From positions 4,402,001 through 4,466,000 of the forward strand of contig NZ_QASA01000001.1 in assembly GCF_003340495.1 (NCBI RefSeq): DNA of 64,000 bases, read 5' to 3'. The translations under genes and the position numbers were made by a program. Each line of letters opens with the position of its first letter. Position 1 is the stretch's first letter. Of the stretch, positions 45,014 to 64,000 are shown piece after piece. The notes beneath the pieces were generated by a model that saw only the letters and a list, made by a program, of their open reading frames with translations, had not been told where the DNA came from and searched no databases. This stretch comes from Adhaeribacter pallidiroseus. GTDB taxonomy: Bacteria; Bacteroidota; Bacteroidia; Cytophagales; Hymenobacteraceae.

Positions 45014-45092
45014 TATCTTTCCTAAAAGTTTGCTGTCTATCAGTTTTACTTCAATTACTGATAACCTTATTACTTGTCTGCCGCAGTTGGCG

Positions 45093-45452: not shown

Positions 45453-45459
45453 ATGGTTC

Positions 45460-46296: not shown

Positions 46297-46324
46297 GGGA
46301 TTAAATTAAGATACGTAACGAGAA

Positions 46325-46915
46325 TTAAAATTCGGCTTCCGTTAATTCATTATCAATCTTGATTCCCGAAATAGTAGCCAGCGTATTCAGCATATTTACC
46401 AAGTCGGCCTGGGCCATTAACTCCTGTACTTCTTCTTCGGTAAAACCTTCTTCCAAGAGTTTCTCAAAATCATAGTTCGTTAACTCCTCTGAATTTAAAG
46501 CAGCTTTCGTAACCAACTGTATAGCAGACTTATAGCTATTGGGCAGGGCGGGCGAATCCAAGTTCTCGGTTACTCTAAAATCTGGATCGTCACTTATCAT
46601 TTTACTCATGCTATCGGCAAATAAGCCATGTGCATGCGCACAATACTCACAACCACGTTCCTTCGATACGTTGTAGATAATAAGCTGCTTTAACACGTTA
46701 GGTACCTGACCTTCGATGAGCGTGGCCCGCAATTTAGCCCAGTTGCCCCGCAGTAGGGTAGCATTACTGCCCTGGCATTTAAACCAGTTGAGCACAAAAG
46801 GTAACTGAAGAACCTGCATGGTTTCTTCGTAAATGGCCTTTACCTCCGAATCTGCTTCCTGGTAAGACACTAACTTAAATCGGGTACTGGGTAAGGCTGT
46901 AGTTGTAGTTGACAT
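46325..46915 (-). CDS. AhpD-like carboxymuconolactone decarboxylase family protein
   Basis: About 196 residues, start MSTTTTALPSTRFKL (an ATG eight codons upstream is possible). The redox motif ERGCEYCAHAHGLFA near residue 90 is the Cys-x-x-Cys-x3-His of AhpD-type peroxidase reductants. The helical fold is all-alpha as in the family. It ends 28 bp before the kinase-like gene, on the same strand, so it may be the first gene of that operon and link redox state to the signalling pair (inference). Confidence 0.88.
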   Translation of the reverse strand: MSTTTTALPSTRFKLVSYQEADSEVKAIYEETMQVLQLPFVLNWFKCQGSNATLLRGNWAKLRATLIEGQVPNVLKQLIIYNVSKERGCEYCAHAHGLFADSMSKMISDDPDFRVTENLDSPALPNSYKSAIQLVTKAALNSEELTNYDFEKLLEEGFTEEEVQELMAQADLVNMLNTLATISGIKIDNELTEAEF

Positions 46916-47083
46916 AGACTTGTTTTTTTTACTTTTCAAAGATAATTAAAGGTTTATGCTCCTAAATCAAAGTAAATACCAAGTCTTAAATTCTAAATAA
47001 ATAATAGTTAAAGTACTATATGTTTATAAAATTTGTACTAAACCAGTATTCGCCCCGATAGAAACAGGAACAATTTTACCAAA
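46916..47083. other. Left junction of the accessory island
   Basis: Between the AhpD-like gene and the truncated replication gene, codon use and base composition change to strongly AT-rich. No direct repeat, tRNA or integrase marks the junction. Confidence 0.4.
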
Positions 47084-47671
47084 TAATATGCCCGCACGTT
47101 CATAGATGTGGCAACAGATGAGCTTGCGGTAAAGATACTTAGCAAGTTTTTCGATAATAATAAGAAGCGAAGCAAGAACTTTATCTACCTCTGGGTTGCC
47201 GAAAGGCAAGCCGAGCACAAGGTATTTCCGGAGAACATTCACTTTCACATGCTTACTAATAAGTACTGGGACATTAAAAAAAGTTGGGCTTACTGGTTAG
47301 AACTGCAAGCCAAACATGGCATTAAGCCAAGAGAAGAGAACTTTAAACCGTCTTCTGCTTTTGATGTGAAGCAGATAAACACTAAAAACCCGAAAAGTAT
47401 TGGAGCTTACTTAACCAAGTACGTGACCAAGAACAAAGCGGAGTTCAGGTGCCAAGTTTGGAATTGCTCGAAGCATATTTCAATCCTCTATACTGATTTC
47501 TATACTGGTTATGAGTTTTTGGAGAAATTGCAACGACTTAAGAAGGAGGAAATAAAAGAAGTGCCTTTAGAATATTGTACCCTGTATCTAATACCTCTAG
47601 ATAAGATTACTATGCGGTTTTACGACCGCTTGCAAGTTAAAAATAAACAAACCCTTGAAACCCTAAACTAG
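47084..47671 (+). pseudogene. Rolling-circle replication initiator (HUH endonuclease), 5'-truncated
   Basis: The frame opens after a stop at 47084 with no ATG and begins inside the domain (TFIDVATDELAVKILSKFF); a GTG at 47108 is the only near start. The HUH metal motif is ENIHFHMLTNKYW near residue 54 and the catalytic Tyr region is IGAYLTKYVTKNK near residue 97, with the Cys-rich VWNCSKHISILYTD after it. This is the replication-associated protein of Bacteroidota plasmids, satellites and small phages. The first strand motif and about 80 residues are missing, so the protein is probably dead or badly impaired. It is followed at 6 bp by a zinc-ribbon protein. Confidence 0.75.
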
Positions 47672-47676
47672 ATAAT

Positions 47677-47940
47677 ATGCCACTTTCACGTAAACGTAAA
47701 AAAAGTAGAACTTCATTAGTAAAATTAAAAATTAAGCAAAGAAAAATTATAATATCAATAGTTGAACCTGATTTCATGAATGAAGAAAATTGTCGAACTT
47801 GCGGTACCTTAAGAGAAAAACTCACATTTCTAGAGTTACCTCTAGAACAGAAGCTACACTGGATACAAAATGATTATTTTAGCTTAATTCCATTCCATTT
47901 TTATTGCCCTAATTGCAAGGAAGCTTCCGCTTTAATTTAA
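47677..47940 (+). CDS. Small zinc-ribbon protein (87 aa)
   Basis: A basic N-terminus (MPLSRKRKKSRTSLVKLK) is followed by two Cys pairs, CRTCG near residue 39 and CPNCK near residue 78, the four-Cys layout of a zinc ribbon that binds nucleic acid or protein. It starts 6 bp after the replication gene, so it belonged to the same element. A short hairpin AAGAGT/ACTCTT lies just past the stop (47943-47958). Function not known. Confidence 0.6.
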   Translation: MPLSRKRKKSRTSLVKLKIKQRKIIISIVEPDFMNEENCRTCGTLREKLTFLELPLEQKLHWIQNDYFSLIPFHFYCPNCKEASALI

Positions 47941-47995
47941 AAAAGAGTGTAAACTCTTAATAGATATTGTTACAATAGATTTTAAGAGATTTTGT

Positions 47996-48075
47996 GAACT
48001 GCACCTTATTCTGCTGGATAAACCACTATGCGGTTTTATGAGCGTTTAGAAACAAAAAATAATCTAACGCTATAA
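47996..48075 (+). pseudogene. Remnant of a second replication-initiator C-terminus
   Basis: The bases encode ELHLILLDKP, then after one missing base MRFYERLETKNNLTL-stop. This matches the last 25 residues of the neighbouring replication protein (LYLIPLDKITMRFYDRLQVKN). So the tail of a related but distinct copy is left here, 330 bp from the first. The rest of the gap 47941-48379 shows no gene. Confidence 0.6.
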
Positions 48076-48379
48076 TAATAAATAATTACCAAAATATCTT
48101 TAATAAACATAATAAGCAATATAAATACTTTGTACTGCTAAAATGAAAGTTTTACTTTCTGTATCACTTCTGAATCCGATAATGCCAAAATGTAAAAAAT
48201 CCAAGAGATTTTCATTCACTTCTTTTTACTAATTTTATCGGTTGGTAACACTGTAAAAATTCAACTAACATTGATCATTTTATTAATTATTATAAATGCA
48301 TAGATATTACAACAGTGTTGATAAGAGAATAACCTGAGAATAAAAGAACCAGATAACATCAGTTTTAAATTAATAAAAA

Positions 48380-49162
48380 TTACGAATTAAAATAGCTTTG
48401 AATGATATTCCTTCTCTTTATTAAAATAGAATCTTCACTATTCTCACTTATAACCATTCTATAAATTAGATCAAAAAGTTGGTCTACGCTATATTTAATT
48501 CCTTCCTTGCCTCTTTCCTGAAAAATTTTAATATAGGCTTGAAACAAAAATTTACCTCTCAATTTGACTTGATAATTAGTTAAAATATCTTGGAAAATTG
48601 CTTCATCAGGTTCTTGAAAGTTTATTTTATTTAAAAACTCAGCACTAAATTCAATGCTCTTTTTTGGTATTATAGCGGTATTAAGTAAAGAAACATTTGA
48701 AAAGCTACAATCATAGCTTTGTTCATTGATGGCTTTCTCAACTTCACGGGAATACCATAAGCAAACGTTTTTTATAATTAATGCTAATTTCAGCTTTTCA
48801 TCATCAGTTAAAAGCTTTATTAAAATATGCTCACCATCTTGGTAAAGCTCATTCTCTATTGAATAACCTTCAGTAGTTATTAAATCCTCATCAGCAAAAT
48901 CGGGTCTACCAAAAAATAGCCATAAATCTGAGTCGCAAATGAAGAGAAGTTTAGAACTGATTTCATTTTTTCTTTTATAAATTTCCAATAACTTAGTTCT
49001 ACCACCACATGACAGAAAATCTAGGTCTATTATATCAAGTTCTTTTTCTATGTTTCTATAAATTTGTAAATCATCAATTCCCTCAATTAAAACAGTATTT
49101 AAGCCACTTCTTTTTAAAACTTCAATTAATATATCTGGGGTAAGTGGATTTATTCTAGGCAT
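48380..49162 (-). CDS. DUF4435 (TOPRIM-like) protein, AriB-type effector of a PARIS-like system
   Basis: A 260-residue protein. The N-terminal half shows the TOPRIM-like metal sites of DUF4435: VLIEGIDDLQIYRNIEKE near residue 23 (Glu and Asp), LLFICDSDLW near residue 72 (Asp-x-Asp) and TEGYSIENELY near residue 95. In the PARIS anti-phage system AriB carries these sites and, when released by AriA, degrades a host tRNA. The gene overlaps the upstream ATPase gene by 8 bp, the same order as in ariAB. Sequence is visibly AT-rich against the core genes. Function as defence is inferred from architecture. Confidence 0.82.
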   Translation of the reverse strand: MPRINPLTPDILIEVLKRSGLNTVLIEGIDDLQIYRNIEKELDIIDLDFLSCGGRTKLLEIYKRKNEISSKLLFICDSDLWLFFGRPDFADEDLITTEGYSIENELYQDGEHILIKLLTDDEKLKLALIIKNVCLWYSREVEKAINEQSYDCSFSNVSLLNTAIIPKKSIEFSAEFLNKINFQEPDEAIFQDILTNYQVKLRGKFLFQAYIKIFQERGKEGIKYSVDQLFDLIYRMVISENSEDSILIKRRNIIQSYFNS

Positions 49163-50216
49163 TTTCAGCTATTCTTTTATCATTAATAATGATTTCTTTA
49201 TCAGGATATTTTGAATATATGAATGGAGAATGTGTAGCAATAATAAATTGATTCCCTTTATTTTGTTTTAATAAAGTTGGGAATAATAATCTTTGCCAAT
49301 CAGTATGAAGGCTAAGTTCGGGCTCATCAATAAATATAATGGATTTATCATAAAAGAAGTTATAACATAAAAAGCTTAGCATTTGCTTTTCACCAGATGA
49401 AAGCTTTTCAGAATAAATAGCTTCTTTCGCATCTCCTAACTTAATATTCCCTGTTATAGAAATTGATTTATTTTTAAAAATCTTATCTACAAAGCTTGAC
49501 AATACTGAAATAGGTTTTAATATATCATTCTTTTTAGAATCATTATTCCTAACAACAGCTTTTATTGATTCTAAGGATTCTTTTTCTTTATTGGTACTTT
49601 TGGAAACAATATCTAAAATTACTTTTGATTGCTCATCCTCAAGCTTTCTTACTTTTTCTGAAATTTCAGAATATTTACTTGTCAACAGAAAGTCAATGTC
49701 ATGAGAAGAAATAGAAGTAATAAAATTATGCTTAGTTTTATTAAGTTCAGTAGAGATAACATCTAGTGCTTCTCTAAGATTGAAAGTACTAAACCTGGAA
49801 CGTTTCCCTTCAGAATTAAGAATAGAATAACCACCTTCAATCCTTCTAAACGTTGGAAAATATAATGAACCCCACATTGGTACTAATCCATCTATTGATT
49901 CAAGTTGCTTTAATGAGATTTCATGGGGAAAAGGAGGAACTTCAGATTTAGTATTAATTTTTAAAAACTTTGTATTTTCTTTCTCAGTAAAAATTAGTTC
50001 TAAGAAATCTCCATCCATAAAATCAAGACGAGCATAATCAAAGTCCATTTCATCGAAAATGTATTTCCAGTTCCCACTCGTCATGTACCACATTAATTTC
50101 AATAAAGTTGTTTTCCCACTTCCATTTTTTCCCGAAATTATATTAAGATCTGAGTGAAACAAAAAATCTTGAGTGATCCTATTATTAAGTTTGATTACAC
50201 TTAGTTTAGTTATCAT
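49155..50216 (-). CDS. ABC/SMC-type AAA ATPase, AriA-type sensor of a PARIS-like system
   Basis: A 353-residue soluble ATPase. Walker A is ISGKNGSGKTTLLKL near residue 27; the central part is coiled (about 195-220); the ABC signature KLSSGEKQML is near residue 276; Walker B with adjoining D-loop is IIFIDEPELSLHTDW near residue 293; the switch His is in IIATHSPFIYSK near residue 327. This is the AAA15/OLD-like ATPase class. With the overlapping DUF4435 gene it forms the two-gene PARIS layout, in which the ATPase detects a phage anti-restriction protein and triggers the effector. It is shorter than the best-known AriA. Confidence 0.85.
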   Translation of the reverse strand: MITKLSVIKLNNRITQDFLFHSDLNIISGKNGSGKTTLLKLMWYMTSGNWKYIFDEMDFDYARLDFMDGDFLELIFTEKENTKFLKINTKSEVPPFPHEISLKQLESIDGLVPMWGSLYFPTFRRIEGGYSILNSEGKRSRFSTFNLREALDVISTELNKTKHNFITSISSHDIDFLLTSKYSEISEKVRKLEDEQSKVILDIVSKSTNKEKESLESIKAVVRNNDSKKNDILKPISVLSSFVDKIFKNKSISITGNIKLGDAKEAIYSEKLSSGEKQMLSFLCYNFFYDKSIIFIDEPELSLHTDWQRLLFPTLLKQNKGNQFIIATHSPFIYSKYPDKEIIINDKRIAENA

Positions 50217-50676
50217 ATCTAAATTATTAGCTTAAATTATTTCTTAAATTTTATCTTTAATGTTGAGCTTATATTGAACCTGTTTGAGCTTTTTAAAAGT
50301 AATTAATTTGTGTATAAAATGGATAAGATATCCAATGTTCTGCAATCTTTATTTATTATTTTGCAATTAATAGATAGCTTTAAGCTAAAGATATTGTGTT
50401 TAATTTAAATTTTAAATTAAACATAAAGATTCTTAACTGGTTCATTTTAATCAATGGTTATAAAAAAATATATCCTTTCTAATTTAAAGGTCATTTTTGA
50501 TGATTAATTAAATCCTCAAGGAGCCCTCTTGATTATATAACAACTTAAATATATTATTAATAAAATAATTGTTTTTACGTGCAGACCTCTGGTTGAGAAT
50601 ATGATGATTTTTTAATAGCAAAGTATTTATAGCCAATATTAATAAACCGTCCCCTATAATGTCCCCTTACAATGAA
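50217..50676. other. Very AT-rich spacer, no gene seen
   Basis: About 460 bp upstream of the ATPase gene, with long A/T runs. It must hold the promoter of the ATPase/DUF4435 pair, but no TAnnTTTG box with correct spacing is clear. GGGGAC occurs twice on the minus strand at 50649-50666. Confidence 0.5.
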
Positions 50677-50709
50677 AAAGCCTTGTAAACAACTAATTTA
50701 CAAGGCTTT
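50677..50709 (-). terminator. Terminator downstream of the Mrr-like gene
   Basis: A perfect 13-bp stem AAAGCCTTGTAAA/TTTACAAGGCTTT with a 7-nt loop, ending in a T run on the minus strand. It lies about 90 bp past the stop of the Mrr-like gene. Confidence 0.8.
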
Positions 50710-50721
50710 ATAATAATTAAA

Positions 50722-50740
50722 AGTACCCAGAGCCGGGTTC
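50722..50740 (-). other. tRNA 3'-end-like sequence, possible att remnant
   Basis: On the minus strand the bases read GAACCCGGCTCTGGGTAC, which looks like the T-arm 3' strand plus acceptor 3' strand of a tRNA (usual form ...CTCTGGGTACCA), directly followed by T-rich sequence and the terminator. No complete tRNA is present. Such fragments are left when an island integrates in a tRNA gene. This is a weak, short match. Confidence 0.3.
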
Positions 50741-50801
50741 CTCAAGTCTATTATCCATCAAGTAGTTATGCTTTTTTTGGTAAACAATTGGTAAATAATT
50801 G

Positions 50802-51629
50802 CTAGATTAATCCTAATTTATATTGTTGCACCCAATCTAAGACATCAACACGGTCATTCAAGTGTAAAAGATAAGGATGCTTATTTTGTCTATTATGAAC
50901 ACCAGAAGTAAAATAGGAAGTTGTAACTATGATACCAGCATTAGCCTGCTCTTCCTTAATAACATCCATAAAGCTCCGCACGATGTCGATTTCTACTGGG
51001 TTCTTTGCAGCATAGCGTTTACATTCAACTAAAAATTTTATTGGGTACCCACCAATTTCTTGAATAGCTAAGATATCGTATCCACCATCCCTAGTTTGCT
51101 TAGTAAGTTCGACTTTGAAATTCCGCTTGTTTAAAAGTTCCGCAATAACTTCTTCAAAATGTCTAGGCTCAATCTTGTATAAAATGTCATTATTGTGGTA
51201 AATGTCGGAGATGATTGATTTAACTCTTTCTGATTCTTTAAATACTATCTGCTCAGATTCGTATTCTAAATCACCAACTAAATCAAACTCTAAAAATTTA
51301 AGTTTAGAATATTCAGGCGAGTTAAAGAACTTATTTAAGCCACCAATTCCTGGAATATTAATTTCGGGCGGTAATTTAAGTACTAACTTGCTAAATGGCT
51401 GATAGACTTGTGATATAGCAGCTGCCATGGTTCCAGCTTTAGAAATGGACTCAGTAAATTCCGCAGATTTTCTAAAGGCTTCTTTAATTTGATCGTTAAA
51501 TATTTTGGTATCTTCCATTGCTTTCGTAAAAGCAGCCTGGCTGGCATGTAATTCAGACCATGGACTTTTTACTCCAAGCATTTGACTTTGGATAAGAGCA
51601 ACCTTTTGAATCCAATCGTAGGGTTCCAT
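50802..51629 (-). CDS. Mrr-like restriction endonuclease with a helical N-terminal domain
   Basis: A 275-residue protein. Residues 1-150 are mostly helical with no known motif. Residues about 155-250 form the Mrr-type PD-(D/E)xK nuclease: FEEVIAELLNKRNFKVELTK, the catalytic Asp in TRDGGYDILA near residue 180, and the ECK motif in FLVECKRYAAK near residue 199, followed by the Q/D-containing helix. Mrr nucleases cut modified or foreign DNA. It starts 22 bp after the HTH gene, so it forms an operon with a repressor, and divergently faces the replication operon. A defence or element-control role is likely but unproven. Confidence 0.85.
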   Translation of the reverse strand: MEPYDWIQKVALIQSQMLGVKSPWSELHASQAAFTKAMEDTKIFNDQIKEAFRKSAEFTESISKAGTMAAAISQVYQPFSKLVLKLPPEINIPGIGGLNKFFNSPEYSKLKFLEFDLVGDLEYESEQIVFKESERVKSIISDIYHNNDILYKIEPRHFEEVIAELLNKRNFKVELTKQTRDGGYDILAIQEIGGYPIKFLVECKRYAAKNPVEIDIVRSFMDVIKEEQANAGIIVTTSYFTSGVHNRQNKHPYLLHLNDRVDVLDWVQQYKLGLI

Positions 51630-51651
51630 TCTATATCTTCTAGTTTATACG

Positions 51652-52011
51652 TTACCCTTTAGCAAAATTCATAGTAGTTAAAAGCTCATTGTGCTTCTCC
51701 AACAAGGCAATGTATTTTTTCTGAAGATTTAAGAGAGCTTTAGTACATTCAGAAAGGCTTTGTAATTCGGTAACTGATTCTTCCGGCAATTCAGAAAGAG
51801 TTTCTTGAGAAGTTTTTAGTTCTGGTATATCTTGACTAAAATCATAGTGAATAATCTTGCCCACCCTTTTAATAAAATCAAGATCTAAGTTAGGTGTCTG
51901 AAACCTAACATATAGGGTATTACGAGTAATCGCCAAAGCTTCAGCAACTTTCACGATTTTCATATCGCTGTTTCTTACCTTTTGTTCAACTACTTCACCC
52001 CGATGTATCAT
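51652..52011 (-). CDS. HTH transcriptional regulator of the element
   Basis: A 119-residue protein with an N-terminal helix-turn-helix (MKIVKVAEALAITRNTLYVRFQ, residues 17-38) and a C-terminal coiled coil (LQSLSECTKALLNLQKKYIALLEKHNELL, about 80-112) that suggests dimer formation. It lies divergent to the replication operon and upstream of the Mrr-like gene, the position of a phage-type or PICI-type (Stl-like) repressor. It probably binds the dyads at 52111-52130. Confidence 0.8.
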   Translation of the reverse strand: MIHRGEVVEQKVRNSDMKIVKVAEALAITRNTLYVRFQTPNLDLDFIKRVGKIIHYDFSQDIPELKTSQETLSELPEESVTELQSLSECTKALLNLQKKYIALLEKHNELLTTMNFAKG

Positions 52012-52110
52012 AGCATTACAAAAATGCTAGATAAACTATCAAAAAAATTAACCAAAATTTTACATAATTCTTGCTTTATTGCGTACACTTTAACTTATTT
52101 GCTTAATTAC

Positions 52111-52130
52111 TTAACATTTTTGTTAAATGT
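52111..52130. promoter_or_regulatory. Candidate repressor operator
   Basis: TTAACATTTTTGTTAA (52111-52126) is a near-perfect dyad, overlapped by ACATTT-n5-AAATGT (52114-52130). It sits in the 182-bp divergent spacer between the HTH gene and the replication operon. Confidence 0.4.
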
Positions 52131-52193
52131 AATTAAATAATTCAGTCAATAAAAAGATTATTTGTTAAAAAAGTTAAAGAAAATCTGCGCAAA

Positions 52194-52541
52194 ATGACAC
52201 AATTAAGTAATAACTCTAATCTTGGTAAAAAGCCTACCAAAAAGCGTATTCGAAAAATTTATGTAATGCAGAAGCAAAACCAGCTTAAAAGCATACTAAT
52301 GGAACTAGGTTTTGAAGATTATAAACCTACTGCTTCTCTTTTAAAAAAATTAGGAATAACCCGACTACGGTTCTTTCAAATTTTTGAAAATACGGGCAAA
52401 AATGAGATAACTGTTACGGAGAAGGAGAACATCGAAAATTGGTTAGCCGAGATTTTGAATAAACCAGTTAGTCAAATCAACTTTATGGTACCTGGTCCCC
52501 AAGAACTCCTAGACTTACAATTAACGTCTAAACGGTTTTAG
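52194..52541 (+). CDS. Hypothetical basic protein, first gene of the element replication operon
   Basis: A 115-residue protein with a very basic N-terminus (GKKPTKKRIRKIYVMQKQNQLK), a predicted helix-turn-helix-like middle (ASLLKKLGITRLRFFQIFEN) and a C-terminal helix. The layout resembles small element regulators or excisionase-like proteins, but I cannot place it in a family. Its stop is 1 bp ahead of the next start, so it is in the same operon as the primase-helicase. Confidence 0.65.
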   Translation: MTQLSNNSNLGKKPTKKRIRKIYVMQKQNQLKSILMELGFEDYKPTASLLKKLGITRLRFFQIFENTGKNEITVTEKENIENWLAEILNKPVSQINFMVPGPQELLDLQLTSKRF

Positions 52542-52542
52542 C

Positions 52543-52788
52543 ATGGAATTTACCGCAATTAGTTACCGTCTTAGCCGCATGGTTAAAGCTGTCGAGACTA
52601 CTATTATAGCTCAGTTGGATATACTTCAGCAGGAGTTCGATAATAACACCATCGATCAATCCACTTATGACTTCTGCCGAATTTTATTAGAAGCTGATTT
52701 AAAAGAGCTTCAAGTCAAAGCCAACATAAGTATTAAAATAGGTCATAAAACCGATGTAGTTCCTCCTTTTAAATTCAACTCCAATTAG
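52543..52788 (+). CDS. Hypothetical protein of the replication operon (81 aa)
   Basis: A short helical protein (YRLSRMVKAVETTIIAQLDILQQEF, then TYDFCRILLEADLKELQVKA) with a likely two-helix coiled coil and no known motif. It directly follows the previous gene and precedes the primase-helicase by 50 bp. Function unknown; small partner proteins of replicative helicases in satellites have similar size. Confidence 0.6.
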   Translation: MEFTAISYRLSRMVKAVETTIIAQLDILQQEFDNNTIDQSTYDFCRILLEADLKELQVKANISIKIGHKTDVVPPFKFNSN

Positions 52789-52838
52789 ATTCTAAGAGCT
52801 AACGATAATGGTATACTTATTAAAAATAGGGCAATGAT

Positions 52839-55118
52839 ATGATAGCAGAACAAAAACCTTATTACCTCCAGCGAACCGAAGAATTAGGCATTACTGCTTC
52901 TGAAAATCAGCTTAGTGTTCACATACCTGGGGAAGAGAAACCACAAATGCTACAGTTGTTAAGCGGAGACGGCAAAGAAGATAATTTACTCATCTTATAC
53001 CTGGATTTACAAATGAAAGAAGGTTCGTTTGTAGCCCTGACTCATGAGATTGAAGTAACTGGAAGCTTCTCTGATACACCGAAAAAGTTGATTGTTCCCT
53101 ATCGGAATACCCGGTTAAAAAAGCCAATTGGAAGTAATAAGTACAGACTACCGGCAAATGCACCAGCATTTCCTTTTCTACCACCACCGCTTATTCAAGC
53201 TTATAGCTCCGGATTAAACATACCCTTACTTATTCTAGTGGAAGGATCCCTAAAAGCATTAAAAGGAAGTATGCACGGAGCTTATGCAGTAGGCATCAAT
53301 GGCATTTGGGGACTCCGGGGAAAAGGATCCAGTGAGCTACACCCGATCATTAAGAAAATCATAGAAGTTTGTAAAGTTCAACATGTGTTGTACCTGCATG
53401 ATGCGGACTTCCGAAGAGTTAATTATAGCTACCTTAAAGATTTAGGAGAACGACCGAAAAACTTTGCAGATACAGTGCTGGCCTACCAAAGGTCTATTCA
53501 AAAATATAAAAGCCAAACCGTTAATTTTTTTTACGGCCATCCCTTAGAAAATGGTCCCAAGGGATTGGATGATGTTTTTATTACTTACCCAGGTCGCGAA
53601 ACGGAAATTTTAGGTGATTTACTACAGTTTCAGGAGGCCAAGCGTTTTTTTAAAATCCATAAGGTACCCGCCGATTTTAAGACTCACGCTGATATAAAGA
53701 AATATTTCTACATCGATAATCCGCAAAACTTCTACGATCACCACTCCGACCTTATCGGGGAGGATCCATATATTTTTTTAGGTGATTTCTACCAGTACAA
53801 TCCAGAAGAAGATTCCGTGGAGATGACTTTACCGAAGGAAGTAAATGATTTTGTGCTAGTAGGTAATCGCTACTTCAAAAACATTTATGAACTAAATAGC
53901 AAAGGCCACCCAGAGCGGGTCAGGTCCATTAGGAACACGGAAATTATACTGGATGATTTCAGGCGAATGAATAAGGATGATAAACAAGCAAAAGCATTAA
54001 TGTTGAAAATTCCTAAATACGATGGTTATGTGAATGAACCTGACTTTTTAAATTTTAAACAGGAAACCATCATCAAAGAAAGGTTTCGAATGCTTAATCT
54101 AGCTTACCGCCTGGAACATGATCCAGAACCAGGAGACTGGCCCCACATTAGACGATTTTTAAAACATATTTTCCATAATGGAGGTGATTGCAAATACGAA
54201 GTTGGATTGGATATGATCCAGATGTATTATACCAAGCCTTGTCAAATACAACGAATTCTAGCCCTAGTTTCTACCTCTAACGAAACAGGAAAAACTAAAT
54301 TCCTAGAGCTAATGCGAGCCATCTTTGGTCAAAATATGAGCATTATTGGCTCTGCCGATTTTGAAAGTCAATTCAATCCTTACATTGTAAAATCACTAGT
54401 AGGCGTTGATGAAAGCAAGATTGATGATCCCCGGATTATTGAAATGATAAAATCGATGGTCACAAATCCCTATGCCAATCTAAATGACAAAGGAGTAGCA
54501 GCGGTTCAAGTAGTTAATCGAGTAAAACTGATTATGACTACCAACCACGTTGAAGATTTTGCAAGCATTCACCAGGCCGAGAACAAGTGGTTTATTCTGG
54601 ATGTAGGTACGGTTCAAAATAAAGACAAAGAGTTAATGGAAAAAATGCAGGCGGAAATCCCTGCTTTTCTTCATTTTCTGTTAAATCGGGAACTGAAATA
54701 TTATTCAAATGAAAGTCGATTTGCTATTCCCGATTATATTGTAGAGACAAAAGCATTACAACGCATTAAGGAAAACTCTAAGCCAGAAGTATTACTCCGA
54801 ATTTTAGATTATTTAAAAGAGCGTTTTGCTGACTTTGACGAGGACGAAATTAGGATTGATGCCAAACGATTGCACGAATTAATTTTTGGAGAGAAGAACT
54901 TCCGGTACACCGCACATGATATAGGTAAAACTATTAAGCAGAACTTAAATTTGGATCCTATTTCTGTATCGAAGCATTTCCGATTTCCCAAACAAGAGAT
55001 TAAGGGAGAAGAAGTTCTAGATGAAAATACTGGAGAGATAGTACCTCCAGAAATTGTTACAACTTGGGAATATAAAAATGGGCGTTATTATGTATTTCCA
55101 CGTTCTCAATTTAGCTAA
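52839..55118 (+). CDS. Primase-helicase of plasmid/phage-satellite type (DUF3854-like TOPRIM plus SF3/DUF5906 helicase)
   Basis: A 759-residue replication protein. The N-terminal part has a TOPRIM-like primase region: ILVEGSLKALKG near residue 130 and VLYLHDADFRRVNY near residue 184. The C-terminal part is a superfamily-3-like helicase: Walker A STSNETGKTKFLEL near residue 480, Walker B-type LVGVDESKIDD near residue 520, and the sensor segment VKLIMTTNHVEDF near residue 563. A final winged-helix-like domain (about 640-720) may bind the origin. Such proteins replicate satellites, ICEs and plasmids. It ends at a terminator, followed by repeat clusters. Confidence 0.85.
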   Translation: MIAEQKPYYLQRTEELGITASENQLSVHIPGEEKPQMLQLLSGDGKEDNLLILYLDLQMKEGSFVALTHEIEVTGSFSDTPKKLIVPYRNTRLKKPIGSNKYRLPANAPAFPFLPPPLIQAYSSGLNIPLLILVEGSLKALKGSMHGAYAVGINGIWGLRGKGSSELHPIIKKIIEVCKVQHVLYLHDADFRRVNYSYLKDLGERPKNFADTVLAYQRSIQKYKSQTVNFFYGHPLENGPKGLDDVFITYPGRETEILGDLLQFQEAKRFFKIHKVPADFKTHADIKKYFYIDNPQNFYDHHSDLIGEDPYIFLGDFYQYNPEEDSVEMTLPKEVNDFVLVGNRYFKNIYELNSKGHPERVRSIRNTEIILDDFRRMNKDDKQAKALMLKIPKYDGYVNEPDFLNFKQETIIKERFRMLNLAYRLEHDPEPGDWPHIRRFLKHIFHNGGDCKYEVGLDMIQMYYTKPCQIQRILALVSTSNETGKTKFLELMRAIFGQNMSIIGSADFESQFNPYIVKSLVGVDESKIDDPRIIEMIKSMVTNPYANLNDKGVAAVQVVNRVKLIMTTNHVEDFASIHQAENKWFILDVGTVQNKDKELMEKMQAEIPAFLHFLLNRELKYYSNESRFAIPDYIVETKALQRIKENSKPEVLLRILDYLKERFADFDEDEIRIDAKRLHELIFGEKNFRYTAHDIGKTIKQNLNLDPISVSKHFRFPKQEIKGEEVLDENTGEIVPPEIVTTWEYKNGRYYVFPRSQFS

Positions 55119-55138
55119 TTATAAATTTTCACAGTGGT

Positions 55139-55168
55139 AAAGTGCAATTGTCTTGCACTTTTTTTTTC
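55139..55168 (+). terminator. Terminator of the primase-helicase operon
   Basis: AAAGTGCAA/TTGCACTTT with a 5-nt loop followed by eight T, 20 bp after the stop codon; a textbook intrinsic terminator. Confidence 0.9.
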
Positions 55169-55203
55169 ACCTAATTTTATTAATGAACTAAAAAGGAAAA
55201 AAT

Positions 55204-55437
55204 AGGTGAGATTGTGAGAAGTAGTACATAAATATTATAAATGTCAGCATTTTACCTCCTCACTAAATTGTTTTTTTAGAGTGAGAAAAAGTGAGAAATG
55301 TGAGAAAAAACTTCACTCATTGTTCTAATGAAAGTAAACTTTCTCACACTCTCACTAATTAATTCTTTAAAAGAAACTTATAATTAACTTTATCTCCCTA
55401 AAAAACAAGACTTTAAGCAATTTCTAACTTTCTCACT
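55204..55437. repeat. GTGAG/CTCAC iteron-like repeats, candidate replication origin
   Basis: Five GTGAG copies (55206, 55214, 55281, 55291, 55300) in a context of GTGAGAA, and four inverted CTCAC copies (55259, 55344, 55351, 55432) lie within 234 bp of AT-rich sequence directly behind the primase-helicase gene. The last three direct copies are spaced 9-10 bp, about one helix turn. This matches the layout of iteron origins placed 3' of the replicase gene in satellites. No protein binding is shown. Confidence 0.5.
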
Positions 55438-55537
55438 CTCAAACTATAATTATTGTTCCAAAATCGGACAATATTGACCCTAATTGGAAGCACTTAAAAC
55501 AATAAAGAAAATGCATTTATAATAAAAATATAAAAAC

Positions 55538-55587
55538 AGGAGGTGCTTCTTTATCCTAAATACTTTAATGATAAAGAAGCACCTCCT
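55538..55587. terminator. 18-bp perfect inverted repeat (AGGAGGTGCTTCTTTATC)
   Basis: Two perfect 18-bp arms (55538-55555, 55570-55587) separated by a 14-nt loop, about 100 bp past the stop of the lipoprotein gene at 55688. It can end minus-strand transcription and also marks the right side of the accessory island. No U tract is strong on either strand. Confidence 0.6.
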
Positions 55588-55687
55588 AAGCATCAAATTG
55601 CTTTATAGTATTTCTACTTTAGTTTCATATACTAACCACAAATAAGATGACCTAACTTGAAAACTTAATTTACAATATATACATGTA

Positions 55688-55891
55688 TCATTTCTGACTA
55701 TTCAGACTATCACTTGCACTTGTGGAGGTGTCACTCATCATTACTCCAATGGGATTTGCAGTATCGGAAGTTACCGGAGGAGTAGTGCTATTTGCTTCAG
55801 TTGTGCTGTCGGAATTAGCAGAGCTTTCGGTTCCTTTTCCGCAGGCGTTGCAAAAACAAACAATACTAAGGGCTAATAATGCTTTTTTCAT
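55688..55891 (-). CDS. Small lipoprotein (67 aa)
   Basis: The signal peptide MKKALLALSIVCFCNACG ends in a lipobox with the acylated Cys at residue 17. The mature part is almost entirely Ser/Thr/Asp/Asn (low-complexity), the form of an extended surface linker peptide. It follows the molybdenum hydroxylase gene by 30 bp on the same strand and may be its last operon gene. No known function. Confidence 0.7.
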   Translation of the reverse strand: MKKALLALSIVCFCNACGKGTESSANSDSTTEANSTTPPVTSDTANPIGVMMSDTSTSASDSLNSQK

Positions 55892-55921
55892 ATTGATCTA
55901 TCTTTTTAATAATAGTTTCCC

Positions 55922-58180
55922 TTATACAAGTTGCTTATTGCCTTGTAGAAAGGGTTGAGTATATTCCCGTTGTCCCGTTGCCTTGTACAAAGCATTTGCC
56001 AGTGCTGCAAAGATGGGTGGAAACAACGGTTCACCCAGGCCAGTTGGATCTGCTTCACTTTTTACAAAATGAACTTCAATGGCTTTTGGCGCTTCGCTGT
56101 GCCGGATCATGCGATATTTGTCAAAATTACTTTTCTGAGGCACTCCTTCTTGAAAGGTCATTTCGCCATACAATGCATTGCCAATGCCATCAATTATTCC
56201 TCCTTCACTCATGTTAGTAGCTGCATCCGGATTCACTACTACTCCGCAGTCAACGGCCGCATATACTTTTTCCACAACAGGTTTGTTTTCCTGCATGGTC
56301 AAATCAATCACTTGGGCTACATAGGTATTATGACAAAAGTAAGCCGAAATGCCCCGGTGAACATCTTTACTGGCTTGCTTCCAATTAGATTTATCCCGGA
56401 CCAATTTTAATACTCCAGCATAACGTTCCGCATCATAATCGTTTTGCTTGCCTACGGGCTTTTTCTTAGCACGGTCCAAAAGTTCCAAGCGAAATTCAAT
56501 TGGATCCTTTTCCGCTAACTCGGCAACCTCGTCTAAAAAAGACTGCTCTACGGCACCCAGGAAATTAGATCGGGGAGCCCGAAAGGCTCCAATTGTAATG
56601 TTGGAATCCAGCATCCACTCCTCGGCTAAATAATGATCCACGGCACCCGCCGGAAAGCGATTTTGGGCAAATCCTAAGGGACTTTCGGGAATCCCTCCCG
56701 CTTTTACTTGATAGGCAATCAGGTTGTTTTTATCATCTAACGCCGCTTTATACGTGGCTGTATACATAGGCCGATAAATCCCGTAGGTCATATCATCCTC
56801 ACGGGTGTAAACCAGCTTCACAGGAGCCTGCAACTTTTGAGAAATAACCGCGGCTTCTACTAAATGGTGGCCATAAGCTCTTTGGCCAAAGCCACCACCC
56901 ATACGAGCCAATTTTATGTGAATCTTTTCTTTAGGTAATCCCAGGCGGGCTGCAAGGGTTTGTGATATTAACTCGGGTGCTTGGATAGGAGCTACTATTT
57001 CAGCTTTATCTTTCGTAACGTGGGCGAAACAATTTACCGGTTCCATGGCATTGTGCGCCAGGAAAGGAGCCGTATACGTGCGTTCAATCACTTTTTTAGC
57101 CGTTTTAAAGACACCTGCCGGATCCCCATCTTTACGCAGCTCTTTACCCGGCTTTTTCATCATTTCCGCCATCTTCACTTGATGCTTTTCGGTACTCTCC
57201 AGACCGGCTGGAATTTTAACCATTTGTTTGTTACCGCCAAACCCAGCTATAGTTACGGTAGAGTCACTTATTTTTTCCCACTCTACTTTCAGAGCTTTCT
57301 TGGCATTCATTACTTCCCAAGTAGAATTTCCCACCACTACCACCAGCTCCGTAAAACTGGTCGTATCAAAACCGTTTCTTTCGTAATCATCGGCTAATGT
57401 TTTAATGACAAATACATCCTTAATCCCGGGCATAGATTTTACGGCTTTATCCTCCACCGATTTTACTTTTAATCCGAATGCTGGTGGATGGGCCATCATG
57501 GCAATCAGCATTCCTTCTTGTTTATAATCCAAAGTGAATAAAGGTTTGCCGGTTACAATATTCATTCCTTCAACGTTCCGCTTCGAATTACCAATGATTT
57601 TAAAATCACCGACTTTTTTTAAAGGCACTTCTTCGGGAACCTTTAGTTTAGCCGCTTGAGAAGCAAATTCTCCATAACCTCCTTCTTTGCCACTCCCCTT
57701 GTGGTGTAATACGCCATCCTTAGTGGTAATTTCACTAGCCGGTACTTTCCAGGTTTGAGCTGCGGCATTTATGAGCAGGTGTCGGGCAGTAGCTCCGGCG
57801 GTGCGCAAAGGCTTCCAGGCCATCTGCATGGCCAGACTCCCCCCAGTAAACTGGCGATCATAGCGTTCTGGGAAAAAATCGGCTTGCTCAACGGTTACGT
57901 TTTTCCAATCGACATCCAACTCTTCGGCCAGCATCATGGGCATGGATGTCTTCACATTGGATCCAAATTCCGGGTTAGGTGAAAATAAAGTAACCAGCCC
58001 GTTGTCGCCGATCTTTATGTAGCTATTTAGTTCAAACCAAGCTTTCGGTAGTTTTGACACCTCCTCCGTAGTAGGCTTGCAGCCGGCCAGCCAACTAAAA
58101 CTGAGCATCATGCCGCCTCCGGCTAGAGCCGAAGCTTTTAAGAAATCCCGCCGGTTGATCGTTTTTTTTGCAGTTTCCAT
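55922..58180 (-). CDS. Tat-exported molybdopterin-binding subunit (xanthine dehydrogenase / isoquinoline 1-oxidoreductase beta-type)
   Basis: About 752 residues; the start at 58180 gives a twin-arginine leader (KKTINRRDFLKASALAGGGMM), and a longer start at 58255 would place this leader internally. Family signatures are GGSLAMQMAWKPLRTAGATAR near residue 130, MGGGFGQRAYGHHLVEAA near residue 435, and GAFRAPRSNFLGAVEQSFLDE near residue 535, which wrap the molybdopterin-cytosine dinucleotide. Such enzymes oxidise aldehydes or N-heterocycles in the periplasm. The [2Fe-2S] subunit gene is 10 bp upstream, forming the heterodimer operon. Substrate cannot be told. Confidence 0.92.
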   Translation of the reverse strand: METAKKTINRRDFLKASALAGGGMMLSFSWLAGCKPTTEEVSKLPKAWFELNSYIKIGDNGLVTLFSPNPEFGSNVKTSMPMMLAEELDVDWKNVTVEQADFFPERYDRQFTGGSLAMQMAWKPLRTAGATARHLLINAAAQTWKVPASEITTKDGVLHHKGSGKEGGYGEFASQAAKLKVPEEVPLKKVGDFKIIGNSKRNVEGMNIVTGKPLFTLDYKQEGMLIAMMAHPPAFGLKVKSVEDKAVKSMPGIKDVFVIKTLADDYERNGFDTTSFTELVVVVGNSTWEVMNAKKALKVEWEKISDSTVTIAGFGGNKQMVKIPAGLESTEKHQVKMAEMMKKPGKELRKDGDPAGVFKTAKKVIERTYTAPFLAHNAMEPVNCFAHVTKDKAEIVAPIQAPELISQTLAARLGLPKEKIHIKLARMGGGFGQRAYGHHLVEAAVISQKLQAPVKLVYTREDDMTYGIYRPMYTATYKAALDDKNNLIAYQVKAGGIPESPLGFAQNRFPAGAVDHYLAEEWMLDSNITIGAFRAPRSNFLGAVEQSFLDEVAELAEKDPIEFRLELLDRAKKKPVGKQNDYDAERYAGVLKLVRDKSNWKQASKDVHRGISAYFCHNTYVAQVIDLTMQENKPVVEKVYAAVDCGVVVNPDAATNMSEGGIIDGIGNALYGEMTFQEGVPQKSNFDKYRMIRHSEAPKAIEVHFVKSEADPTGLGEPLFPPIFAALANALYKATGQREYTQPFLQGNKQLV

Positions 58181-58190
58181 AGTTACAGTT

Positions 58191-58658
58191 TTAGGCAGTT
58201 TTGGTTGATTTAGCAGCCGTTTTGATAGCGGTCTTAATACGCAGATAAGTGGCACAACGGCAGATATTACCGTTCATCGTCGTTTCAATTTCTTCATCCG
58301 TAGGATTTGGATTGCTTTTCAACAACGCTGATGCATTCATTATTTGCCCAGCCTGACAATAGCCGCACTGTGCTACATCATGTTCCAACCAGGCTTGTTG
58401 TACCGGATGGTCTCCTTTTTCCGAAAGTCCCTCTATGGTGGTTATGGTTTGTTCGCCTACCGCTGATACCGGCAATTGACAGGAACGCATGGCTACCTCG
58501 CCGAGATGGATGGTGCAGGCCCCACATTGGGCAATGCCACAACCGTACTTGGTTCCGACTAGGTTTAGGTGATCCCGCAACACCCACAACATAGGCGTGG
58601 CTGGGTCAACGTTCACCTGCAGAACTTTTCCGTTAATTTTTAAGCTATATGTTGCCAT
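58191..58658 (-). CDS. [2Fe-2S] subunit of the molybdenum hydroxylase
   Basis: A 155-residue iron-sulfur protein with two clusters. The plant-ferredoxin-like cluster ligands are in GTKYGCGIAQCGACTIHLG near residue 38 plus the downstream Cys (SCQLP); the second cluster is held by QCGYCQAGQIM near residue 98 and GNICRCATYLRI near residue 130. It passes electrons from the molybdenum site. No signal peptide, so it is carried through the Tat system with its partner (known for this family). Confidence 0.95.
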   Translation of the reverse strand: MATYSLKINGKVLQVNVDPATPMLWVLRDHLNLVGTKYGCGIAQCGACTIHLGEVAMRSCQLPVSAVGEQTITTIEGLSEKGDHPVQQAWLEHDVAQCGYCQAGQIMNASALLKSNPNPTDEEIETTMNGNICRCATYLRIKTAIKTAAKSTKTA

Positions 58659-58724
58659 AACTTTGTATGTTAAAGGTTACAATAATATACCTGGAAATAA
58701 ATTACCATCCTATACTTTAGCCTT

Positions 58725-59222
58725 TTACGGCTTTACTATGCTATTATATTCAGCATCCGTAACTGGCTCTAACCATATCACGGCTCCATTTTGGGTGTTG
58801 GTTACGGCTATTTGAATAAACTCTTGATTGGGACTCGCCCCGTGCCAATGCTTTACATTTGGCGGGCATTTGACTACTTCTCCTTTCCGTAGAATCCTTT
58901 TCGGACTCCCTTTTTCTTGATAATACCCTACTCCACCGGTGGCTAGCAATATCTGTCCGCCCGGATGAGAATGCCACTTGGTCCGGGCCCCCGGTTCAAA
59001 AGTTACATTGCCTACCGATATCGGATTAAGACTGTCACTCGCCACCAAGGGCTGCAACCAAGCATTACCTTTAAAATTATCATTGGTAATCTTTTCTCCT
59101 GTGGGAAAAACCAGGTTCTGGTTAATAGACGAACTATTTTTCTTGTTCTGTGCCTTCACTGGCAAAGTGAATGAGCAAAAAAGCACCCACGAGAGAATAA
59201 ACAAGTTGGCAAAGTATATCAT
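58725..59222 (-). CDS. Secreted cupin-domain protein
   Basis: A 165-residue protein with signal peptide (LFILSWVLFCSFTLPVKAQ). The cupin metal motifs are TKWHSHPGGQILLATGG near residue 86 (two His and Gln) and KCPPNVKHWHGAS near residue 123 (His). The residues for metal binding are all present. It starts 11 bp after the carboxymuconolactone-decarboxylase-like gene, forming a pair often found together in redox clusters. Enzyme activity unknown. Confidence 0.9.
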   Translation of the reverse strand: MIYFANLFILSWVLFCSFTLPVKAQNKKNSSSINQNLVFPTGEKITNDNFKGNAWLQPLVASDSLNPISVGNVTFEPGARTKWHSHPGGQILLATGGVGYYQEKGSPKRILRKGEVVKCPPNVKHWHGASPNQEFIQIAVTNTQNGAVIWLEPVTDAEYNSIVKP

Positions 59223-59233
59223 GGTAATACCTT

Positions 59234-59980
59234 TTATTTCTTTCTTGAATTTATTACAATCGCCAGAACCTGTTTAGCTACTTCTGCCTCCTTTTTTCCA
59301 CCATGGGCGTCAATCAGGGAAATGATTTGCATGAGCCCAGCTTCCGTGATACCAATGTTTAAGGCAATGCCCATATGGCTTTGCATCATCGGCTCGACTC
59401 CCCCCAAGTTGATAAGGGCCGATATAGTAGCAATTTCTCTATCGGCATAGCTAATAATATCCCGGGTAAAAAGGTCGGCAAACAAATGCTCCTTCAAAAA
59501 TATCTCTATTTCTGGGCTGAAGGCTGCATAGCCGGTTTTGGGGCTTGTCTCTGGTCTACCAGTTAGGCTTTCTAATACTTTCTTTCCCCGCTCGTATTTG
59601 CTTCCACTATCCGATACAGGGGTAGCTCCTTTGCCTACCTTATCGATTATACCTTTCGTTTTTCTTGCATCTACTACTGCCATCAAGGTTTTTATTCCCT
59701 GAAGACTTCTGGGAAAGCCACAATAGGCATACAAGTGAACAAGTACTTCTTTTGCTTCATTAATAGTAAGGCCTGCATCCAGTGCTTTGTGCAAAGTCTG
59801 ATTTAATTGGGGCAGATCTCCTTTAGCCGTAAAGGTTGCAATTGGTACGATATGTTGCTGCTTGGCATCCAGACCTTGGTTTCTACCTCCGTTAATTTGT
59901 GCTTGCATGGTGTTAGAAACAAGTAAAAAGGTAAGAAAGTAAATAATAAACATCAGGTGGTGAATTCGTGCACTTAACAT
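59234..59980 (-). CDS. Secreted two-domain carboxymuconolactone-decarboxylase-like protein
   Basis: A 248-residue protein with an N-terminal hydrophobic segment (MFIIYFLTFLLVSNTMQAQ), so it is likely exported; start at 59953 is also possible. Two CMD-type helical repeats are seen: TINEAKEVLVHLYAYCGFPRSL near residue 75 and REIATISALINLGGVEPMMQSH near residue 185. The Cys-x-x-Cys of AhpD is not complete in either repeat, so peroxidase activity is doubtful. It pairs with the cupin gene 11 bp on. Confidence 0.88.
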   Translation of the reverse strand: MLSARIHHLMFIIYFLTFLLVSNTMQAQINGGRNQGLDAKQQHIVPIATFTAKGDLPQLNQTLHKALDAGLTINEAKEVLVHLYAYCGFPRSLQGIKTLMAVVDARKTKGIIDKVGKGATPVSDSGSKYERGKKVLESLTGRPETSPKTGYAAFSPEIEIFLKEHLFADLFTRDIISYADREIATISALINLGGVEPMMQSHMGIALNIGITEAGLMQIISLIDAHGGKKEAEVAKQVLAIVINSRKK

Positions 59981-60144
59981 AAAGTAAAATTAAAAGCCTA
60001 ACTCAATAACTTACCCTCTCAGGCACATCATGTAGTATATGATCATCCGGAAGGATTTATGGACTTAACAAGAAGGTAAAGAACAAAGCCGTAGTAAAAA
60101 GCTTTTTTAAGATTCACAAGAATCAAAACTTCTTACTACAGTAT

Positions 60145-60780
60145 TCATTTTTGGATTAATTGGAGTTTTTCTAACCACTTCTTTACTTCCTCTTGCACCT
60201 GTTTTTCTTTTTCTCCCTCCATCACGAACAAAACACCATCTCTTTCTATTCCGCCCTTAGTCGTAAAGCCTTCTAGTATTTTACTATTGGGAGCCATTGC
60301 TTTTACCGTTTCGAAAGTGCTGCCAATGCCGTAGCCAGCGTTGGAATTAAAAGGCACAATGGTTTTACCACTTAGATTATACTGGTTTAAAAAGCTTTTC
60401 ATGGGTGGCGGTAACTGCATGCCCCAAGTCGGGAAGCCTAAAAACACCACATTATAATTTTCTATGCTGTCAATTTTTGTTTTCAAAGGCGGTAAAAAAC
60501 CGGTTGCGTTTTCATTAGCCACCTGATCCACAATTTGTCTATAATTTTGAGGATAAGGATTATCTAACTCCAATGCCACCAAGGCTCCACCGATATTTTG
60601 GTGAATCATTTCCGCAATAGCCTTAGTATTATTGGTCCGGGATAAATACACAATTAAGACTTTATCTGGAGTTACAGAAGAGGCAGTTTGCACATTGATG
60701 CCAAAATCTTCCGTTTGGGAAGGAGAACAAGCAGAAAATAAAAAAAAGAACCCCAACAGTAATTGCATCATACAAGTCAT
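60145..60780 (-). CDS. Flavodoxin-like lipoprotein
   Basis: About 211 residues. The start at 60780 gives a signal peptide with lipobox LLLGFFFLFSAC; a longer start at 60828 exists. The FMN phosphate loop is IVYLSRTNNTKAIAE near residue 43, and FLGFPTWGMQLPPPM near residue 115 is the flavodoxin Tyr/Trp loop region. Extracytoplasmic flavodoxins of this kind occur beside Tat-exported oxidoreductases and may donate electrons to them. It is on the minus strand with the rest of the redox set. Confidence 0.88.
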   Translation of the reverse strand: MTCMMQLLLGFFFLFSACSPSQTEDFGINVQTASSVTPDKVLIVYLSRTNNTKAIAEMIHQNIGGALVALELDNPYPQNYRQIVDQVANENATGFLPPLKTKIDSIENYNVVFLGFPTWGMQLPPPMKSFLNQYNLSGKTIVPFNSNAGYGIGSTFETVKAMAPNSKILEGFTTKGGIERDGVLFVMEGEKEKQVQEEVKKWLEKLQLIQK

Positions 60781-60848
60781 TATTTTATTCTCTTTAATTG
60801 TTGCCACAATTTTTATATTAGCATTCAAATAGTTTGGGGAAAAGTGGT

Positions 60849-61352: not shown

Positions 61353-61491
61353 TTTATTGAGGTTTGAAATTTTTGTTTTATATATTTTTTTTGCTATCAC
61401 CCCAAACTTCCTTGTTGTATTGTCGCTACTGAGTTACTTCTTTCTGTGTAAGGGCCGTTAACTTCAGAACCAACCCAGCCTGGTTATACTA

Positions 61492-61944: not shown

Positions 61945-62125
61945 TTTTAAGATTATTTACTAGTAATATAATTTGTTTATTGTCAGATATTTAAAGACTC
62001 ATTCCGGACACTGAGCTTATTTTTAGAACAAGAGCGGTGTAAACTGTAATAGATAGTTTCGCCAGTTGCTCCAAGTCTGCCCTCCATGGGATAGCAATTT
62101 GGGATCTTTCACCCCTCCTTACTAA

Positions 62126-63289: not shown

Positions 63290-63354
63290 AGTTGCTATTG
63301 TCTTACTAATTGACAAGGTACTTTGAAGGAGTTATTGCTTCTGTTTTGGCAAGA

Positions 63355-64000
<646 letters not shown>

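Follow-up and report, generated by a model that had tools for sequence, protein, structure and literature searches.

Phage-inducible chromosomal islands (PICI) are satellites, small elements without virion genes of their own in which a stl-like repressor is divergent to a module of primase and replication origin (ori). In excerpts of one report they measure 7 to 20 kb and have no structural genes (PMC13376191). In the published passages that concern it, Salisaeta icosahedral phage 1 (SSIP-1) is a membrane-containing icosahedral virus, grouped with the two-capsid-protein single-barrel viruses (PMC6260650; PMC4958249; PMC5332951; PMC5894146), and an excerpt from one of these sources describes the capsid proteins of such viruses as two vertical single beta-barrels (PMC4958249). 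Two of the papers call the virus unclassified. Here both are compared with a locus in a 64,000-nucleotide stretch of Adhaeribacter pallidiroseus (contig NZ_QASA01000001.1, positions 4,402,001 to 4,466,000; the window, to which all positions of up to five digits refer, seven-digit positions being those of the contig). At 51652-55440 this stretch carries a module of repressor, divergent operon with a primase-helicase, and iteron-like repeats, which a first-pass annotation took for a phage satellite, possibly a decayed one. With a probability of roughly two in three, the module serves immunity and replication and forms the end, next to the left attachment (att) site, of a 46.8-kb integrated temperate provirus-like element, likely that of a tailless membrane-containing virus of the SSIP-1 type.

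The boundaries of the element are given by a tRNA gene. Comparison with six tRNA-Leu loci revealed that the 585-bp gap to the left of the Mrr-type nuclease gene ends in a match to the 3' part of tRNA-Leu(CAA) and to the terminator behind it, and the 15-bp core of this left att site, attL (GTACCCAGAGCCGGG, window 50723-50737), duplicates the tRNA gene at its 3' end. The 14-mer TACCCAGAGCCGGG has exactly two copies in the genome, both on the forward strand, at 4452724 (window 50724) and 4499527; its reversed control has none. The right copy sits in an intact tRNA-Leu(CAA) gene 46.8 kb to the right of attL and adjoins a tyrosine integrase of 405 residues (4498191-4499408; Phage_integrase, E 1.2e-15), so that there are direct att repeats, one of them in an intact tRNA gene with an integrase beside it, as in an integrative element at tRNA-Leu(CAA). 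In the congeneric genome G004 (locus L122), window 50642-50740 aligns to 5510-5412 (84.8% over 99 bp) and the right flank 4499526-4499705 to 5429-5249; the two flanks are contiguous there, overlapping by 18 bp at the core, and the neighbouring genes match on both sides. The two att copies, the integrase and the element-free site in G004 therefore identify, with high certainty, an insertion of 46.8 kb that has the module at its left end and the integrase at its right. From left to right it consists of the module, a 10.6-kb metabolic cluster, a block of about 20 kb with virion- and lysis-like genes, defence-like genes, the integrase and the tRNA gene. An inverted repeat (48287-48301 and 55511-55525) had also been considered as the ends of the element; it is A+T-rich, no target duplication was seen by eye, and the att sites supersede it.

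The first-pass annotation had described the module as one without an integrase and had proposed to look for one outside the window, where it was indeed found together with the matching att site. It had also named a primase within an integrative and conjugative element (ICE), with an integrase next to it, as a finding that would speak against a satellite. In essence this is what is seen, as the element has its own integrase, although this lies 41 kb away and the element was not recognised as an ICE: neither relaxase nor type IV secretion was found among the proteins scanned with general libraries, in the course of which no search dedicated to them was made. What stands of the proposal is a phage-type module on a mobile element; "satellite" and "decayed" are not supported in view of the element's own integrase, its att sites and its virion- and lysis-like block. 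The satellite reading fails because the element continues beyond the window.

Within the module, all four open reading frames (ORFs) of the first-pass annotation were verified by ORF calling (Table 1), and matches to DUF5906 (Pfam, E 2.3e-14) and to a PHROG DNA primase (E 1.3e-19) bear out the primase-helicase. The order is repressor, divergent helix-turn-helix (HTH) gene HTH2, small gene, primase-helicase, terminator and iteron-like repeats. Behind the repressor, at a distance of 22 bp, lies the Mrr-type nuclease that had been placed in the same operon; it had no relatives among the viral contigs searched. Neither the repressor nor HTH2 matched a Pfam family above cut-off. The repressor is 46% identical to the corresponding gene of a Rufibacter prophage (see below), 42-43% to that of locus L022 and 25-27% to those of L020 and L021, and HTH2 is 58% identical to its Rufibacter counterpart over 88 residues in a search and 51% in an alignment. 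The small protein and its Rufibacter counterpart gave no BLAST match at E 0.01. In the divergent spacer a candidate dyad, TTAACA-N4-TGTTAA at 52111-52126, was spotted by eye. The match of the 759-residue primase-helicase to a P4-type primase C-terminus falls below the curated NCBIfam cut-off, and the "Primase" chains 6k9e and 6k9c of the PDB match it at E 3.7e-5. Residues E135, D188/D190 and G484-K485 are invariant across 10 aligned primase sequences; the first three lie in a TOPRIM-like part and the last two in a Walker A motif.

Downstream of the primase, the proposed terminator is backed by a hairpin whose AAAGTGCA..TGCACTTTTT motif recurs 3' of the Rufibacter primase (L019), and is weakened by a fold z of only -1.4, with 21 of 200 shuffles folding equally well. 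Of the proposed repeats, one part could be retained. GTGAGA occurs eight times, counting both strands, within 55206-55436 and 13 times in the whole 64 kb, and some G/C-containing 6-mer reached eight copies in 2 of 300 dinucleotide shuffles of the spacer. The hairpin of the large inverted repeat (55538-55587) is neither part of the module nor a recombination site: it is the terminator that belongs to the adjacent lipoprotein gene, and its one further match in the genome is with its own second arm. Rfam, at gathering scores, had no match in window 44000-60000.

The primase is present in a single copy in its own genome and was found in none of the seven other genomes of the genus. Counting its own genome, it had matches in 11 of 204 genomes of the family (E <= 1e-10) and 21 of 390 in a sample of the order (E <= 1e-40), and at E <= 1e-110 its own genome was the only one among 395 in a sample of the class. 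Near full-length primases occur in five family genomes (L019, L020, L021, L022, and L026), and in four of these five a relative of the repressor is encoded no more than 5 kb away from the primase. Homologues of the Rufibacter phage structural proteins were found near the primase in L019, L020 (with L058), L022 (with L057), and L026; in the stretch of L021 that was scanned there are two late-region homologues of that phage and no more.

The closest module known is that of the Rufibacter immobilis MCC P1 prophage (G132; NZ_RJJE01000017), with 53% identity in the primase, 46% in the repressor, 51-58% in HTH2 and an equivalent gene order. This prophage is the uncultivated virus genome (UViG) 2839759663_000002, identical across the 10,545 bp compared. 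As in the A. pallidiroseus island, the module forms the left end, here between two tRNA-Met copies with a tyrosine integrase by the right one; an att site of this type was considered for the island as well and rejected, as none of the 13-mers of its 23-nt core occurs in the window. Unlike the island, the prophage is tailed, with PHROG matches for head protease and tape measure and weak ones for a portal; its "terminase" and "capsid" are labelled by size and position and have no PHROG function. It also differs in having no nuclease behind the repressor, and when 40 of its proteins were compared only repressor, HTH2 and primase matched the island, apart from one weak match at E 0.007. Since the same order is found at the edge of this apparently complete tailed prophage, it does not mark satellites, as the first-pass annotation had assumed. 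The A. pallidiroseus chromosome itself has a resident tailed prophage at about 2302390-2336000 (L124, L125), which has Rufibacter-type structural homologues and lacks the module primase; it is the only hit in this genome, near 2.31 Mb, of the Rufibacter terminase-like protein.

Related primases also occur outside recognised phages. In genome G229 (L083, G229:C3 5787-16260) a relative with 46% identity lies with an integrase, an HTH_17 gene and arsenic-type cargo (ArsR, a methyltransferase, and an SBF-family transporter); the locus adjoins tRNA-Ser, and no phage was seen in the stretch. Judged from these genes, it is an integrative element whose primase is related to that of the module. In G244 a primase relative sits at a contig end, and in G280 a homologous primase is broken, beside pieces of an integrase. 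On these comparisons the order of repressor, primase and origin is a module of phages and integrative elements and not the mark of a satellite.

Iteron-like enrichment 3' of the primase was found in four of the eight spacers tested, one of the eight (L021) having inexact coordinates. Eleven GTAAGA words follow the primase terminator motif in the Rufibacter prophage (0 of 300 shuffles) where the island has GTGAGA, clusters of a different 6-mer occur in L019, L020, and L026 (0 of 300 shuffles each), and no such enrichment was seen in L022, L083, and L089. The word thus differs between relatives (GTAAGA, GTAACA/GTTACA, and GAAACA in L019, L020, and L026; GTGAGA in the window) and its position is kept, which suggests that primase and origin co-evolve.

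The virion- and lysis-like block lies beyond the window, at about 4474291 to 4494540, and is preceded by a 780-residue protein without assigned family at 4469145. It contains 20 proteins of 80 residues or more, of which 15 were scanned against Pfam (the other five have 94, 103, 151, 103, and 239 residues) and 10 against PHROGs. Among those recognised are an SLT transglycosylase, a transglutaminase-like protein of 608 residues, a GH108 lysozyme, a methyltransferase/strawberry-notch helicase of 1576 residues and an ATPase. No terminase, portal, capsid or replication initiator was recognised in the proteins scanned, and from the set typical of a tailed temperate phage (terminase, portal, major capsid protein, and tape measure) there is only the weak similarity of the 608-residue protein to tape measures (E 2e-8), which, like that of the transglycosylase to a lytic tail protein (E 7e-6), is of low specificity. 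A hydrophobic stretch was found in 7 of the 20 block proteins, 3 of 35 proteins of the Rufibacter phage and 4 of 11 of the metabolic cluster, and because of the last figure this count does not discriminate.

The nearest relatives of the block are found on circular plasmids and in SSIP-1. Nine island proteins have collinear matches (E <= 0.01) on plasmid 13 of Persicobacter sp. JZB09 (CP012856, circular, 47,579 bp), among them those of a 198-residue protein (31%, E 3e-30) and of the ATPase (49%); E 4e-5 and 0.008 were the values for the two poorest of the nine. Plasmid 11 (CP012854) matches six island proteins, and pPP10 of P. psychrovividus has four matches in the virion-type part of the block. 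In contrast to the integrated island, the Persicobacter plasmids are circular and carry maintenance genes of the Rep/Par type. Among 50,697 phage records the 608-residue protein matches SSIP-1 gp34 alone (two records of one virus; 25.7%, E 6e-5), and among plasmids it has matches in Persicobacter only (five records). Six CP012856 proteins match five SSIP-1 genes, gp3, gp31, gp34, gp43 (E 1.8e-33), and gp56 (E 5e-9), and profile comparison gave 98% for the transglutaminase family with the structural gp34, 97% for the lysozyme family with the gp31 endolysin and 92% for a Persicobacter pair with gp56. SSIP-1 gp40 belongs to phrog_6891 (E 2.6e-79), which is also the best PHROG of the island ATPase (E 1.3e-7). 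The virion genes shared with SSIP-1 are thus the gp34 and gp40 families and gp31. Like the island, SSIP-1 (43.8 kb) carries an integrase; it differs in its replication genes and its host, Salisaeta, and none of its capsid proteins was matched to the island. Further relatives of the block are the UViGs L142 and L150, the latter with an integrase 28% identical to that of the island. Because its nearest relatives are the Persicobacter plasmids and SSIP-1, the block points to a provirus of the tailless SSIP-1 type. This virus type can be assigned with moderate certainty, and a tailless, membrane-containing provirus is, on the shared genes, most likely, rather than a satellite.

Several observations weigh against this assignment. 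No major capsid protein was identified in the element, and the direct profile comparison of the ATPase with SSIP-1 gp40 reached only 47%. The 1576-residue protein is found in 735 plasmid records and is 35% identical to one of a Bacteroides phage, and is therefore not diagnostic. For the 198-residue protein a PDB search was empty, its family matches none of the SSIP-1 late proteins tested, and AlphaFold models of two relatives had mean pLDDT (predicted local distance difference test) values of 34 and 31. A metabolic cluster of 10.6 kb is unusual inside a virus; it may have been inserted later and have disrupted the virus. The element-free site is known from a single comparison genome, which itself has another, older insertion at the same tRNA-Leu. 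A small HTH-like ORF seen by eye near the block (81 residues, 4473808-4474053) could regulate a separate element. Finally, the Persicobacter plasmids offer no match to the primase, and the module is related to tailed phages and to an integrative element; module and block may therefore have different histories.

Of the other explanations, the one that survives best is an immobile genomic island of proviral origin, retained on account of its nuclease, Fic, TIR and metabolic genes. The inserted metabolic cluster would agree with this, as would the broken primase of G280; on the other hand, the genes for integrase, primase and regulators and those of the block are open and the att core is present, which makes a dead island unlikely. 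Somewhat less probable still are two elements in tandem, in which the module would be the remnant of a Rufibacter-like tailed prophage and the integrase and block would belong to a second element, the middle att site having been lost. The different kinship of the two parts is what such an arrangement predicts, since tailed phages are related to the module and not to the block and nothing else of the Rufibacter phage, bar the match at E 0.007, is found in the island; the metabolic cluster also sits exactly between them, to the left there is already an older element at tRNA-Leu, and the HTH-like ORF could be a second regulator. Against this, the genome has only two exact copies of the att core and the primase and regulator reading frames are open; moreover, because no replication initiator was recognised in the scanned block proteins and the module supplies one, the whole is better read as one element. 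Least probable, and by a good way, is a self-replicating, integrase-bearing PICI-like satellite that borrows the capsid of the prophage near 2.30-2.34 Mb: it would account for the divergent module order, for the lack of a confident terminase, portal or tail gene in the proteins scanned and for a candidate helper with Rufibacter phage homologues (head protease, tape measure, and portal-like, with terminase and capsid labelled by size and position), but that order is not specific to PICI and recurs in a prophage that is apparently complete, the element with its 46.8 kb (or 36 kb if the metabolic cluster is subtracted) is large for a satellite, and about 20 kb of its own virion- and lysis-like genes are partly collinear with stand-alone replicons.

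Table 1. Features of the tRNA-Leu(CAA) locus of A. pallidiroseus (window positions unless given as contig positions).
Feature	Position	Strand	Remarks
Truncated (5') HUH rolling-circle Rep, outside the element	47108-47671	+	REP_ORF2-G2P, E 8.7e-8; longer copies in other genomes
orf87, zinc-ribbon-like, outside the element	47677-47940	+	Beside the truncated Rep
PARIS-like pair AriB (DUF4435) and AriA (AAA), outside the element	48380-50216	-	PADLOC: AriA E 3.7e-31, AriB E 1.8e-7
attL, left boundary of the 46.8-kb element	50642-50740	-	3' end of tRNA-Leu(CAA) and its downstream terminator hairpin
Mrr-type restriction endonuclease, accessory gene at the att end	50802-51629	-	Mrr_cat, E 7.9e-22; PADLOC matches PDC-S02/mREase
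HTH repressor-like protein, 119 residues	51652-52011	-	Family occurs near the primase of related prophages
Divergent spacer, presumed operator/promoter	52012-52193		Candidate imperfect dyads; very A+T-rich
HTH2, small DNA-binding-like protein, 115 residues	52194-52541	+	Rufibacter counterpart in equivalent position
Small protein, 81 residues	52543-52788	+	26% in alignment to Rufibacter protein at equivalent position; weak
Primase-helicase, 759 residues	52839-55118	+	TOPRIM-like N-terminal part, DUF5906/SF3-type helicase part
Terminator-like hairpin 3' of the primase	55139-55168	+	Fold z -1.4; motif common to Rufibacter
Iteron-like cluster, presumed replication origin	55206-55436		8 GTGAGA, both strands
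Metabolic cluster (lipoprotein, aldehyde oxidase, iron-sulphur protein, cupin, others)	55687-64000, on to 4468271	-	10.6 kb in all

The remaining cargo of the element is partly known from other places in the genus. The AraC/aldehyde-oxidase cluster has a syntenic block elsewhere in the chromosome of the congeneric G007, and its aldehyde-oxidase part is also present in G003, G006, and G001. Near the integrase end, at 4494932-4496561, PADLOC recognised Fic (PDC-S04) and TIR (TIR-TM) genes, so that defence-like genes are found at either end of the element.

To the left of attL lies a separate insertion at tRNA-Leu(CAA), with a truncated Rep; it is the older one, because G004 has such a scrap in the corresponding position and lacks the 46.8-kb element. 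Besides the truncated Rep there is a second scrap of a Rep C-terminus near 47999-48062. The AriA/AriB pair resembles PARIS in its adjacent AAA and DUF4435 genes, and by its position does not belong to the element. The HUH Rep is carried by 13 of 204 family genomes, its own included, and had no match in the phage and plasmid collections. Its surroundings were examined in 7 of the 12 other genomes, and in six of the seven tRNA-Leu(CAA) is in the stretch; in G193 and G137 it is accompanied by an integrase (by similarity) and an HTH-like gene (by eye). The truncated Rep with orf87 and the PARIS-like pair belong to this family of small elements at tRNA-Leu(CAA) (L119, L120, L121, L122, L123, L129, and L130), which have integrase, HTH-like gene, HUH Rep and orf87. 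Truncated Rep/orf87 ends persist in several genomes beside variable, partly defence-like cargo (PARIS, SIR2/ThsA, and HEC-05). For example, L119 has at 3705-6427 a Rep C-terminal scrap and orf91, followed by AriA and AriB with strong matches (E 8.6e-32 and 1.4e-35); this contig also holds a complete Rep, at a distance of 11.7 kb. Of seven cargo proteins examined with PADLOC, four were clear (AriA, AriB, and HEC-05 in G193; ThsA/SIR2 in G001), one was weak and two had no match.

Presumably the 46.8-kb element, having recombined into the 3' end of tRNA-Leu(CAA), is held in check by the repressor, which would bind the divergent spacer and so keep the operon of HTH2, small gene and primase off. 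The Mrr nuclease behind the repressor may be co-expressed in the lysogen and serve as defence. Upon derepression the integrase would excise the element and the primase-helicase, judging by gene order and family, would open the iteron cluster just 3' of its own gene for replication, and the virion-type block would then package the element in a virion of its own. It is tempting to go further and to speculate that Cytophagales harbour a lineage of temperate, tailless membrane viruses akin to SSIP-1, which alternates between integrated and plasmid forms and exchanges whole immunity and replication modules with tailed phages, the present locus being a member in the integrated state that has a primase module of the tailed-phage type and 10.6 kb of metabolic cargo; this wider view is put forward tentatively and is held with less than even confidence. 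In titles and the beginnings of abstracts on Salisaeta icosahedral phage, SSIP-1 proviruses, Persicobacter plasmid phages and PICI satellites of Bacteroidota, no such element is described.

An apparent orphan fragment of a satellite is here the visible end of a whole provirus-like element, and such a fragment may be useful as a marker of a larger one; the order of repressor, primase and origin alone cannot identify satellites. If the reading of the virion block is true, SSIP-1 would have relatives in Bacteroidota both as integrated elements and as plasmids, and tailed and tailless viruses would exchange replication modules.

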